Assembly (NCBI GenBank): GCA_021776025.1
Contig: JAJFGR010000018.1
Coordinates: 62,001 to 126,000, forward strand
Source of the DNA: Alphaproteobacteria bacterium
GTDB lineage: Bacteria; Pseudomonadota; Alphaproteobacteria; Micavibrionales; Micavibrionaceae
Direction of reading: 5' to 3'
DNA length: 64,000 nt
Positions 47,854 through 59,414 of this stretch are shown here, in pieces; within the stretch, counting starts at the first letter, position 1, and each line of letters starts with the position of its first letter. Under the pieces are notes generated by a model, which was not told the origin of the DNA, did not search any database, and worked only from the letters and a program-made list of their open reading frames with translations. The position numbers and the translations under genes were made by a program.

Positions 47854-48780
47854 ATGGTAGAACCTTTATCATCAGATGAATTCCCGCGCGCAGGTGCGGC
47901 CATACCTTTACCCGCCGAGACACCTCCTTCAGTCGCTGTAGAGATATTGAAATCTGCAAATATTGAGCTTGTTGAGCGCTTATTTTATCATTGGCGTGAT
48001 AATCCGCCGGATCTTAGACAGCTGGTGAGTGGGTGCTGCGACACTATAAAATTTTCAAATAAATCAAGTAGTCTGATTATGTCCGCGACAAAAATGGCGG
48101 CGGAAGAAAACAACAACCCCTATCACCACAACCACCATTTTCGTGAAGTGTTTGCGCTGACATTTATGCTTGGTCACCACGCTTCTCAGGACCTGACATT
48201 TACAGAGGAACGTTTTGCTCAATTGCTGACCGCAGCACTGATTCATGATTACAAGCATGATGGCCTGACAAATACTATTGATGGTGTGCACACCCCATTC
48301 AGGCTTGAGAAACAATCATTTGATGCGGCAAAAGAGCGTTTAGTAAAGGCCGGTGCAACGGCCGAAGATCTTACCGTTATTGAAGCCTTTATTTTGGGAA
48401 CAGATGCGAGCGCGCCAAAGGGTAATAAAGATTATGTTTCTCCTACCGACAGCATGAAAAATTACATGGATAATGGCGGCAAAAATCCTGAAGATTTACA
48501 TCAGAGTTTACGCGTGCTGCACGAAAGAAATTTAGTTGATACCGCGCTGTTATTACATGATGCCGATATTGGATCCAGCGCTGCCCTATCGCCAAAATTT
48601 AATGCGCTCCAAAGCGAAGAACTTAAGGTCGAATGGGGGCTGGATGAAGCTCCTGACCAAAAATTCTTTTTCAAACAAGTCTGTCGTGAACGTATGTTTT
48701 CCAGATCTGGAAAAGCGCTTTTGCAACCCTCAATGAATAAAGTTCTCGAAAGCTTCGGCATAGAACCACCGCACGCCTAA
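47854..48780 (+). CDS. HD/PDEase-like metal-dependent phosphohydrolase
   Basis: The 308-residue protein has the metal motifs of class I cyclic-nucleotide phosphodiesterases: NPYHHNHHFREVF (His92-95 region), then ALIHDYKHDGLTN (His131, Asp132, His135) and LLLHDADIGSS (His235, Asp236). The spacing YHxxxH...HDxxHxGxxN is closer to eukaryotic PDEs than to ordinary bacterial HD domains. The substrate is unknown. It sits between nrdA and nrdB behind its own promoter, so a nucleotide-related role is a reasonable guess only. Confidence 0.75.
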   Translation: MVEPLSSDEFPRAGAAIPLPAETPPSVAVEILKSANIELVERLFYHWRDNPPDLRQLVSGCCDTIKFSNKSSSLIMSATKMAAEENNNPYHHNHHFREVFALTFMLGHHASQDLTFTEERFAQLLTAALIHDYKHDGLTNTIDGVHTPFRLEKQSFDAAKERLVKAGATAEDLTVIEAFILGTDASAPKGNKDYVSPTDSMKNYMDNGGKNPEDLHQSLRVLHERNLVDTALLLHDADIGSSAALSPKFNALQSEELKVEWGLDEAPDQKFFFKQVCRERMFSRSGKALLQPSMNKVLESFGIEPPHA

Positions 48781-48795
48781 TTCGGCGTTTTTTTG
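48773..48795 (+). terminator. Weak terminator after the PDE-like gene
   Basis: A 5-bp ACGCC/GGCGT stem with a 6-base loop is followed by seven T. It overlaps the stop codon of the PDE-like gene. Confidence 0.5.
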
Positions 48796-48823
48796 TGAAA
48801 AAATCACTAATTTTTCTTGAAAA

Positions 48824-48871
48824 ACACAATATATGGTGGTTTAATAGGTTTATTGTCACAATATGCGGTCA
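48824..48871. promoter_or_regulatory. Pair of NrdR-like boxes upstream of nrdB
   Basis: Box 1 at 48824-48839 reads ACACAATATATGGTGG and box 2 at 48856-48871 reads TCACAATATGCGGTCA. Both match the NrdR consensus ACAC-AT-rich-GTGT pattern. They are 32 bases apart, about three helical turns, as found for NrdR-controlled ribonucleotide reductase genes. The NrdR gene is not in this window. Confidence 0.6.
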
Positions 48872-49027
48872 TGCTCTTTTTGCAGTTTTGTTGCCGTTCC
48901 TTACGAAAACTTATCCCCGCTATCCCCGTTGTTTTTTCGGGTTTTTCGCGGAATGACTCGGAAAATTGCAGAAGAACTCTACACTTAACGTCACAAGAAT
49001 CACTGTTTAAATGAGGAGACACGCCCC

Positions 49028-54830: not shown

Positions 54831-55184
54831 TCAACCTTCCGTGATTTTTTTAACAACCGAGGACTTTAACCCCATCGGTCCGAACCCCGGAACCTTACCA
54901 TCAATGTCATGGCCGCTGACCTGCTCGTTTTCAGGGACAAGGCGGATGTTCTTGACCTTTGTGCCGACCTTAATCGCGCTGCCTCCGACTTTCAAATCCT
55001 TGGCGATGGTCACGGAATCGCCGTCTTTAAGCTCATTGCCGACGGAATCGCGGATGGTTTTGGCGCTCTCTTCATCTCCGGCGGCTGACCATTCATGCGC
55101 GCATTCGGGGCAGATCAGCAGATCGCGATCTTCATACGTGTAGGCTGAGCTGCATTTGGGGCATGGGGGAAGATTTTGCGTCAT
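54831..55184 (-). CDS. PhnA/YjdM-family zinc-ribbon protein
   Basis: The 117-residue protein has an N-terminal zinc ribbon ([14 protein letters not shown]...ICPECAHEW) followed by the PhnA domain: [19 protein letters not shown], then [10 protein letters not shown] and [11 protein letters not shown]. The name PhnA is historical. No phosphonate function is implied by the neighbours. Confidence 0.92.
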
Positions 55185-56220: not shown

Positions 56221-56466
56221 TTATTCTGACGGAAGCTTTACATCCGCGTCGCGCCAGCGGCGCATGTTGCCTTGGCATTCGAGAGCGCCATTATCGACAA
56301 GGATATAGAGCGCTTCCGCGATTTCTTTGCCTGAATCAGCATGCGGCGTAATCCCTGCGCCCGGCATCGCATCATAGACTTTGGAGATTAGAGCCGCGAT
56401 TTTGGTGAACTCCACGCTGGCGGCTTCCATGATCAGGGCATCGATTTTTTCGGGTGCGTTGGTCAT
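56221..56466 (-). CDS. Small hypothetical protein, 81 aa
   Basis: The product (MTNAPEKIDALIMEAASVEF...) is a helical soluble protein. It overlaps the upstream 62-aa gene by four bases (ATGA), so the two are coupled. I recognise no family. The coherent overlap supports both as real. Confidence 0.6.
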   Translation of the reverse strand: MTNAPEKIDALIMEAASVEFTKIAALISKVYDAMPGAGITPHADSGKEIAEALYILVDNGALECQGNMRRWRDADVKLPSE

Positions 56467-56651
56467 GCGGCGTCAAAGCGCTCTTTTGCGTCGGCGAACC
56501 ATTTGGCGATGTCCGCAGGGGTCGCGGCGGCGTTTTTCATCATATAATCCATGTGCTCGGCCATGTAATGCGCCTGCACGAGCTTGGTCCAGCCTTCGAA
56601 GTCCTCGGCGCTGAATTCGGTATCGCATTGGTCACAGGAGAGTGTTTTCAT
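56463..56651 (-). CDS. Small CxxC protein, 62 aa
   Basis: The product begins MKTLSCDQCDTEFSAEDFEG, with a CxxC pair and later His residues (AHYMAEHMDYMM) that could complete a zinc site, as in a zinc-finger-like DUF1059-type protein. AGGAACC lies before the ATG. It heads a two-gene unit and is upstream of a structured region on the other strand. Confidence 0.6.
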   Translation of the reverse strand: MKTLSCDQCDTEFSAEDFEGWTKLVQAHYMAEHMDYMMKNAAATPADIAKWFADAKERFDAA

Positions 56652-56723
56652 AGGCTGGTTCCTTTTTAGGGTTAAGCGACTAATCCCCGCTACCCACAGA
56701 GCTTAAAGAGAATTTTATCATAA

Positions 56724-56987
56724 AACCACACCAGAACTGGTATTATGTGGTTCTGTCCCTCAAGGAGGGGTTGTAAGAGGCCGTGAGCCTCGGGGTTAGC
56801 CTCACAAGCTGGCTTAAGGGAGAAAAGCATTTGGAACCGAACCCCCTGCGAAAGCAGCAAAGGTAAAGGTCCACCTTAGTCGCTATCTTCCGCTTCAAAA
56901 TACCAAGCGCTTGGTATGGAGATAGCCTGAGCAACCGGGCGATATAATTAGTTGGTTTTTAATTAAACCATGCGCATGGTATTTTTT
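56724..56987 (+). ncRNA. Structured leader RNA with terminator/antiterminator-like hairpins
   Basis: Within about 260 bases there are at least seven hairpins on the plus strand. They are 56724-56752 (7 bp), 56757-56769, 56777-56791, 56792-56845 (6 bp closing a long loop), 56846-56857 with a GAAA tetraloop, 56860-56877 and 56882-56926 with an inner 18-bp palindrome. The end has two mutually exclusive stems: 56953-56970 and a terminator-like 56967-56980 followed by six T. A 28-codon ORF follows. It matches no riboswitch, tmRNA, RNase P or SRP signature I know. Confidence 0.5.
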
Positions 56988-56998
56988 GGAGAAATCCA

Positions 56999-57085
56999 AT
57001 GATTTCCATGAAAATAAAAATTAGACTGAACCTTTGGCAGTTTATGCTTCTTATGAAGTTTCTGCTTTTGATCTTTTTAATTTAA
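56999..57085 (+). CDS. 28-residue hydrophobic peptide ORF behind the structured leader
   Basis: The ATG at 56999 follows GGAG by seven bases, a good ribosome-binding site. The frame reads MISMKIKIRLNLWQFMLLMK and then FLLLIFLI before TAA: a short basic head and a membrane-spanning hydrophobic tail. This is typical of small membrane peptides, including type I toxin proteins. A hairpin at 57090 follows. The peptide is not in any family I recognise, and its reality rests on the leader, ribosome-binding site and terminator together. Confidence 0.4.
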   Translation: MISMKIKIRLNLWQFMLLMKFLLLIFLI

Positions 57086-57089
57086 GGCG

Positions 57090-57110
57090 AAGGGGGGCTA
57101 ACGCCCCCTT
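57090..57110. terminator. GC-rich hairpin, possibly bidirectional terminator
   Basis: An AAGGGG/CCCCTT stem with an inner GC pair lies between the peptide ORF and the end of thiC. It could end both transcripts. The plus-strand tail (AGCTATTTT) is only partly T-rich. Confidence 0.6.
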
Positions 57111-57117
57111 AGCTATT

Positions 57118-58926
<1,809 letters not shown>

Positions 58927-59256
58927 TTATAGGTAATAGGTATCAGGATCCATATCGCGGATCTCAAGTGTTACTGCGCATTCTGGCGAAACAGTTTCTT
59001 TCATCACGGTATGCAGAGCATCACCGAATTTCTTTTTCGTCGGTCCATCGCGACCCGCTAGGATTAAAAGCGTTGCATGAAGCATTTGACCATTCAAACC
59101 TTTATCTCCAACCACAGCGTGATTGAGAAGCGTTGCACGGGTTTTTAAGCGCGCGCGTTCAACGCCTTGTTCGACCAATGCTTCGTGCATATCTGGAAGT
59201 AATTGCGGGATTTGTGCTTCAAGAGATTGAGAATATTCAACAATAATATGGGGCAT
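58927..59256 (-). CDS. CHMI/tautomerase-family protein
   Basis: The 109-residue protein starts MPHIIVEYSQSLEAQIP with the Pro1 nucleophile of the tautomerase superfamily. It has HATLLILAGRDGPTKKKFGDAL and fits 5-carboxymethyl-2-hydroxymuconate isomerase-like proteins. It lies between the TPP riboswitch and thiC, which is unexpected for an aromatic-degradation enzyme and suggests some other role near thiamin synthesis. Confidence 0.85.
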   Translation of the reverse strand: MPHIIVEYSQSLEAQIPQLLPDMHEALVEQGVERARLKTRATLLNHAVVGDKGLNGQMLHATLLILAGRDGPTKKKFGDALHTVMKETVSPECAVTLEIRDMDPDTYYL

Positions 59257-59267
59257 GGTCTTTTCCT

Positions 59268-59336
59268 TTCCCTACGAGGGTGCTAGCCCTACAGGTTCGA
59301 GGCGTGTTTCTCAGCCACATTCAAGCAGCACCGCCA
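59268..59336 (-). promoter_or_regulatory. TPP (THI-box) riboswitch
   Basis: On the minus strand the region contains GGCTGAGA (59309-59316), CGAACCTG (59292-59299) and CGTAGGGA near 59270-59276. The closing stem is GGTGCT (59327-59332) with AGCACC (59279-59284). These are the conserved THI-box elements. It lies directly upstream of the tautomerase-thiC operon, so thiamin pyrophosphate is expected to switch the operon off. Confidence 0.92.
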
Positions 59337-59414
59337 AGGTTTTTGTATGGATGCAAAGTGGCAGAAATAAAAAGATATTTCAAGGCCATATAGGTTTCAT
59401 GTTAAAATGGTCTT

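Follow-up and report, generated by a model that had tools for sequence, protein, structure and literature searches.

A hairpin-rich intergenic stretch beside thiC in a member of the Micavibrionaceae: a candidate type I toxin-antitoxin-like unit

Membrane-type toxins of type I toxin-antitoxin systems are described in PMC8309996 as peptides of fewer than 60 amino acids that are hydrophobic and helical and carry their cationic residues mostly at the C-terminus, with IbsC, ShoB and DinQ as exceptions to this last pattern. At divergent type I loci the antitoxin is complementary over 18-21 nt according to the excerpts of PMC3919570, where the ribosome-binding site of TisB is also reported to be inaccessible in its own structure. 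For AapA3 of H. pylori, the relevant part of PMC6733600 describes how, in the course of transcription, two successive, mutually exclusive metastable hairpins cover the ribosome-binding site.

Our analysis concerns an intergenic stretch of an alphaproteobacterial genome (56690-57115), bounded by thiC and a 62-aa gene, within a window of 64,000 nucleotides, by which we mean the whole stretch of DNA analysed. The original prediction offered two readings of it, a ligand-sensing attenuator or a type I toxin-antitoxin-like unit. We favour the second, and consider the stretch a candidate for a compact, divergent unit of this kind, with a probability of about 0.35. In the thiamine unit, a TPP riboswitch (59252-59345, minus strand, 59.4 bits) immediately precedes thiC and a gene at 58927-59256 that is CHMI-like (Pfam E 5.5e-15); the CHMI-like gene is an unusual-looking companion for such a unit. 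The features to which we refer are the following.

54831-55184: YjdM-like gene, the window's own copy
56221-56466, minus strand: 81-aa gene, next after the 62-aa gene
56463-56651, minus strand: 62-aa gene
56712-56935, minus strand: hairpin-rich left part, a candidate structured RNA (hypothetical antitoxin sRNA) by its fold z-score
56882-56926: hairpin H1, a 9-bp basal stem and a 7-bp apical stem with P1 as its tip and a one-sided 8-nt internal loop; MFE -15.7 kcal/mol
56900-56917, either strand: P1, perfect 18-bp palindrome ATACCAAGCGCTTGGTAT, read from the sequence
56943-56948, plus strand: TATAAT, a -10-like hexamer with a poor -35, between P1 and P2
56953-56970, plus strand: hairpin A, TGGTTT(TTAATT)AAACCA, -4.4 kcal/mol, excludes P2
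56967-56980, either strand: P2, palindrome ACCATGCGCATGGT, local -3.9 kcal/mol, followed by a run of six T (56982-56987)
56986-56999, plus strand: predicted hairpin C, TTGGA(GAAA)TCCAA, encloses GGAG and is flush with the AUG
56991-57006, plus strand: hairpin D, GAAATC(CAAT)GATTTC, -2.9 kcal/mol, over the start codon, excludes C
56999-57085, plus strand: ORF of 28 codons plus TAA, MISMKIKIRLNLWQFMLLMKFLLLIFLI, N-terminal part basic, C-terminal part hydrophobic
57091-57110, plus strand: GC-rich hairpin with a T-rich tail, AGCTATTTTA, from the terminator scan; not above chance by count
57118-58914, minus strand: thiC, a vitamin B1 gene (Pfam ThiC_Rad_SAM, E 2.4e-188)

The stretch holds 12 perfect-hairpin centres (stem of at least 5, loop of 3-8, one counted per centre), whereas 1000 shuffles give 2.97 ± 1.77 and not one reaches 12, and it tops all 636 sliding segments of the 64 kb (mean 2.82); as the GC hairpin alone accounts for three overlapping centres, about 10 sites are separate. 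Direct reading and recomputation bear out the hairpin-rich stretch with a GAAA tetraloop that had been described (CTGC-GAAA-GCAG, 56846-56857). The runner-up, three overlapping segments at 48401-49026, reaches 11 centres, and this hairpin-dense spot matches no Rfam family at gathering score. At 48773-48824, a stretch of T and A runs covers the end of a 308-aa ORF and the DNA behind it, with centres that are mostly shifted copies of one another; it is probably the terminator of that ORF. The fold of 56724-57117 beats its shuffles on both strands (plus z -3.0, minus z -3.92; 0/120 for each), a two-strand excess that palindromes imply. When the region is shuffled 1000 times, a hydrophobic short ORF with a ribosome-binding site turns up in 3 cases, under a test (18-50 codons, mean hydropathy over 15 residues of 2.2 or more) whose cut-off was fixed after the peptide's value had been seen; across the whole window the same test picks out one ORF on the plus strand, the 28-codon ORF, and one on the minus strand. 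T-rich DNA tends towards hydrophobic peptides.

The hairpin and peptide unit is an orphan among the genomes, phages and plasmids searched. The covariance-model check proposed with the original prediction returned no known family on the plus or the minus strand: in Rfam 15 nothing in the stretch reached a gathering score, and relaxing the limit to E 10 brought seven chance-level matches (E at least 0.51), all far below gathering scores. By DNA similarity, 93 relatives (six of the same genus), searched along with the genome itself, yielded no credible match, the one hit of about 36 nt lying at another locus; a class draw of 385 genomes and a phylum draw of 398, each including our own, gave 15 hits (pieces of 19-43 nt) and 8 hits (19-38 nt) besides our own, respectively, none credible, the two draws overlapping and at most two candidates per genome being scored, which can miss weak matches. 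The strongest match of these searches (G131, 31 nt), the only one read individually, appears by eye to be coding DNA. Phage DNA gave one 45-nt match that is not credible (E 0.4), and plasmid DNA none. As for the peptide, whose frame had been expected to be conserved in related genomes, a search of 142 genomes at E up to 0.05 found no credible relative, the two matches besides its own falling within longer frames (296 and 304 codons); phages and plasmids gave none, and profile searches of NCBIfam and Pfam at E up to 10 gave 0 families each. Single-sequence covariance models, run with stricter filters that lose weak matches, recovered among 142 genomes of the order the genome itself and one further match for R1 (56880-57010), and the genome itself only for R2 (56724-56880). 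The further match (G036; E 0.94, 19.6 bits, or E 0.0016 when only that locus is searched) sits at the end of an apparent protein gene, has several pairs broken and was discarded. Two 18-19-mers of the left part found 1 and 0 matches in viral contigs, the one being coding DNA by eye.

The DNA downstream of thiC was read in 14 other genomes with a thiC match, of 56 searched (only 299 nt in G007), and the longest match of the element to these 14 loci is 14 nt (E up to 1). What occupies the slot varies among species of one genus. A SocA_Panacea antitoxin-like gene (E 1.2e-21) and another ORF lie between thiC and the 62-aa gene in G001, and a single ORF, by eye, between thiC and an 81-aa-like gene in G002; the slot holds a putAbiC/AbiP abortive infection gene in G030 (Pfam 4.2e-20, PADLOC 1.8e-14), an HTH_3 gene (7.4e-14) next to one for an M78 peptidase (ImmA-like, 1.3e-26) in G015, an AAA ATPase in G010 and a sub-threshold HEPN match in G021. 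The Pfam cut-off was reached by 4 of 9 hand-picked slot proteins from eight relatives (Panacea, putAbiC, M78 and AAA), and PADLOC gave one clear hit (AbiP/AbiC) and two weak ones (E 0.0047 and 0.0097) among six slot proteins. No defence gene was identified, mostly by eye without a family search, in G003, G006, G002, G005, G012, G034, G011 and G016; the last two have a YjdM-like gene further on (by eye). Downstream of thiC in G021 (L019 / L028) there is a second, shortened thiC 3' end, as after element insertion and duplication; a duplicate of this kind was sought elsewhere in our window and not found. The thiC 3' flank (L004, L014, L015, L019, L023 and L024) is a variable, partly defence-like slot, so the argument from location is suggestive, not strong.

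The main rival to the type I-like reading draws on the same searches: the stretch could be a hairpin-rich relic that no longer has a function, such as what is left of a small element once inserted into the thiC slot, with the ORF as a by-product of T-rich DNA. The lack of a credible match in the 93 relatives, the class and phylum draws, phages and plasmids speaks for it, as do slot contents that differ within one genus and a promoter that is not above chance (see below). On general reasoning, however, unselected perfect short hairpins should decay, yet 12 centres persist here, and the ribosome-binding site, ORF and terminator-like hairpin are all in working order. We consider a relic unlikely, if the least unlikely of the alternatives.

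The same parts figure in the type I-like reading. The ribosome-binding site GGAG (56988-56991), located 7 nt before the ATG at 56999, and the 28-codon ORF that follows it are in place as first described. The peptide has a best 15-residue hydropathy mean of 2.44 and shares the size and hydrophobicity of type I toxins (<60 aa, membrane-type); Lys/Arg occupy positions 5, 7, 9 and 20, three of the four charges lying near the N-terminus and the very C-terminus having none. The predicted unpaired probability of GGAG is 0.21-0.26 across five transcript models. The GC-rich hairpin reported behind the ORF corresponds to 57091-57110, the single site found by a terminator scan for which shuffles average 1.2, and on sequence grounds it likely ends the plus-strand unit as a terminator. 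A 10-codon frame (56970-57002, plus strand) starts at ATG 56970 and closes with a TGA that overlaps the ATG of the 28-codon ORF (ATGA), an arrangement that could allow translational coupling; by eye, no ribosome-binding site was seen before it.

The fold upstream of the ORF offers alternatives. The competing stem said to exclude the second palindrome is hairpin A, which overlaps the P2 core by 4 nt. In the prediction for 56728-57116, hairpins A and C are present and P2 is absent, whereas in the minimum-energy fold of 56880-57010 P1 is paired with P2 and hairpin D replaces C; since longer and shorter fragments fold differently, the alternative hairpins must lie near each other in energy. A long-distance pairing of 56792-56801 with 57096-57107 (-16 kcal/mol as a duplex) was discarded, as the fold loses 4.6 kcal/mol once four of its pairs are imposed. 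Switching between A/P2 and C/D could also make the stretch a cis-acting leader (attenuator, riboswitch or thermometer) that governs the 28-aa peptide with no antitoxin, to which the exclusive hairpins, the T6 run behind P2 and the predicted hidden ribosome-binding site would be suited. Of this, the ligand-sensing attenuator of the original prediction fares poorly, as no Rfam class matches and the terminator scan finds no terminator-grade site upstream of the ORF, P2 with its T6 falling below the criteria. In addition, thiC is convergent to the plus-strand ORF unit, there is no plus-strand metabolic gene directly behind the ORF, and 56724-56880 folds unremarkably as plus strand (z -0.42). We judge a cis-acting leader improbable.

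Of the palindromes, P1 was reread and recomputed as the perfect 18-bp palindrome first claimed. Its proposed counterpart at 56965-56982 stands in part: the 14-bp core (56967-56980) is perfect and is followed by the six T noted previously (56982-56987), but the 18-mer has one mismatched pair. P1 and P2 are identical at 15 of 18 positions and able to pair at 15 of 18 (3 mismatches), and relative to the P1 core P2 carries a symmetrical A-T to T-A swap that keeps the dyad in both. They are the only exact ACCAWGCGCWTGGT sites in the genome. In the type I-like unit P1 and P2 would act as pairing elements; they could instead be two operators in tandem, placed around a promoter with the TATAAT at 56943-56948 and bound, by analogy with TetR, by a repressor that recognises palindromes. 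Perfect dyads preserved by a paired swap would suit operators, and sites with at most 2 mismatches number 41 in the genome against 12 for a reversed control. Those placed are P1, P2 and two one-mismatch sites; both of the latter lie in open frames, however, and the genome has no further exact site. The exact P1 18-mer occurs 8 times in genome contigs (about 3.7 expected by our own arithmetic) and 0 times in viral contigs. Two of the eight (L033, L036) lie between evident genes, next to what by eye looks like promoter sequence, though shorter open frames cover them, and the other six fall inside long frames. An exact site exists in 5 of 142 other genomes, always within an open frame, the exact paired-palindrome pattern is found 0 times in viral contigs and 0 times in genome contigs, and Pfam detects a DNA-binding domain in neither of the two neighbouring genes (56463-56651 and 56221-56466). 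An operator pair seems slightly less probable than a leader.

The two halves of the stretch differ in the strand on which they fold. The left part (56712-56935) is more stable than its shuffles mainly on the minus strand (z -2.81, 0/250 as stable; plus z -1.55, 19/250), and the right part (56950-57116) on the plus strand (z -4.6, 0/250; minus z -2.41, 4/250). G-U pairs point the same way, with 9/70 on the minus and 4/69 on the plus strand of the left part, and 7/52 on the plus and 2/44 on the minus strand of the right part. The asymmetry was spotted post hoc, with the split made at the AT-rich middle, and with other cuts it keeps its direction less strongly: 56712-56880 gives minus z -2.14 (5/250) and plus z -0.56, 56986-57116 gives plus z -3.3 and minus z -1.57, and with 56736-56935 it is weaker (minus -1.88, 8/250; plus -0.74, 51/250). 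Segments of 120 nt favour the minus strand from 56700 and 56730 (-2.40 and -1.72, against plus -0.45 and 0.08) and the plus strand when starting between 56880 and 57000 (-2.6 to -4.2), but those from 56790, 56820 and 56850 favour plus as well (-1.05, -1.78 and -1.58, against -0.83, -0.32 and -0.95). Taken together, the folding suggests two divergent RNAs, not one long leader. A promoter scan found none above chance on either strand; with a sigma-70 matrix, the best plus-strand score, 8.1, belongs to the TATAAT at 56943-56948, where the best of the shuffles averages 8.4, and the hexamer is not evidence of a promoter. The total-duplex energy of the left minus-strand RNA with the right plus-strand RNA is equalled or exceeded by 188 of 300 shuffles, and the left part taken as plus strand gives a lower duplex score still (-87.9 vs -67.5); this test is driven by overall composition, and a short seed is hardly visible to it. 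That the structured part is instead the minus-strand 5' leader of the 62-aa and 81-aa genes (56463-56651, 56221-56466) is the least probable reading: the left part, immediately upstream of the 62-aa gene, does fold better on the minus strand than expected by chance, but the intergenic DNA beside the relatives of that gene in G001 and G004 matches over at most 15 nt (E up to 1), and this reading has no place for the terminator, the hairpin at the ribosome-binding site or the ORF on the plus strand.

A type I toxin-antitoxin-like unit would combine these features as follows. The plus-strand mRNA would start near 56955, where the DNA separating P1 from P2 is AT-rich, and be kept nearly silent by hairpins C and D; once opened, it would yield the membrane peptide. 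The left part, transcribed divergently, would be a structured RNA with P1 in its 5' part, which by pairing with P2 (15/18) just upstream of the ribosome-binding site would turn the peptide off. Housed in a variable slot, the unit might then arrest growth under stress or phage attack. The hairpin excess (0/1000 shuffles), the rarity of the ORF (3/1000), the predicted hidden ribosome-binding site, the strand and G-U asymmetry, the paired A-T/T-A swap that keeps the dyads and the 15/18 pairing of P1 with P2 all argue for this reading, as do the Panacea, putAbiC/AbiP and M78 + HTH_3 genes in the thiC slot of three relatives, and a layout and expression logic akin to those of the loci treated in the consulted parts of PMC3919570 and PMC6733600. 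Several observations argue against it. No RNA or peptide homologue was found, which leaves neither covariation nor frame conservation; there is no above-chance promoter, and the total-duplex energy is no better than in shuffles. The P1-P2 pairing has 3 mismatches, and because both are palindromic it could equally be a cis interaction. The asymmetry is post hoc, weaker with other cuts and not borne out by the segments from 56790, 56820 and 56850, T-rich DNA tends to yield hydrophobic peptides, and most relatives' slots hold genes not identified as defence. The type I option of the original prediction is accordingly upheld in its anatomy (a hydrophobic 28-aa peptide, a predicted hidden ribosome-binding site, exclusive hairpins and a slot that is partly antitoxin-like or abortive-infection), while membership is not established.

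It is a doubtful further step that the locus represents an undescribed family of divergent type I units, in which duplicated palindromes pair toxin mRNA with antitoxin RNA and which move via the thiC slot, into which defence genes are also taken up. Among the listed literature titles on thiC as an integration hotspot or defence island, none is about this site, and we make no claim of absence from print. If such a family exists, it would be a minimal membrane-peptide module under RNA control, of a kind that escapes sequence searches; its palindromes would be pairing elements that can stand in for one another, and it would pay to look downstream of thiC in this bacterial group for small defence modules that gene callers miss.

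Among known systems, the attenuators and riboswitches of Rfam resemble the unit in their alternative hairpins and T run, but the unit matches no family, has by the scan no hairpin of terminator grade ahead of the ORF and is not directly followed by a metabolic target. As far as the sources cited at the outset describe them, ShoB/OhsC, TisB/IstR and ZorO/OrzO of E. coli come closer, sharing with the unit a small hydrophobic peptide and a structured untranslated region; TisB has a hidden ribosome-binding site, as the unit is predicted to have, and to the divergent antitoxin RNAs of the E. coli loci a hypothetical RNA with a partner sequence of about 18 nt would correspond here. We found no sequence relation to these three pairs, and the unit's complementarity is 15/18 and palindromic. 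With AapA/IsoA of Helicobacter pylori, as presented in the part of PMC6733600 considered, the unit shares a pair of successive hairpins that exclude each other where the ORF begins, one of them over the ribosome-binding site, and it differs in that its predicted fold contains no long-distance 5'-3' lock; the antitoxin of AapA3 is the small antisense RNA IsoA3, and that of the unit would be the hypothetical left RNA. On paper, then, the unit would work like known type I loci, which makes it a candidate member of this class.
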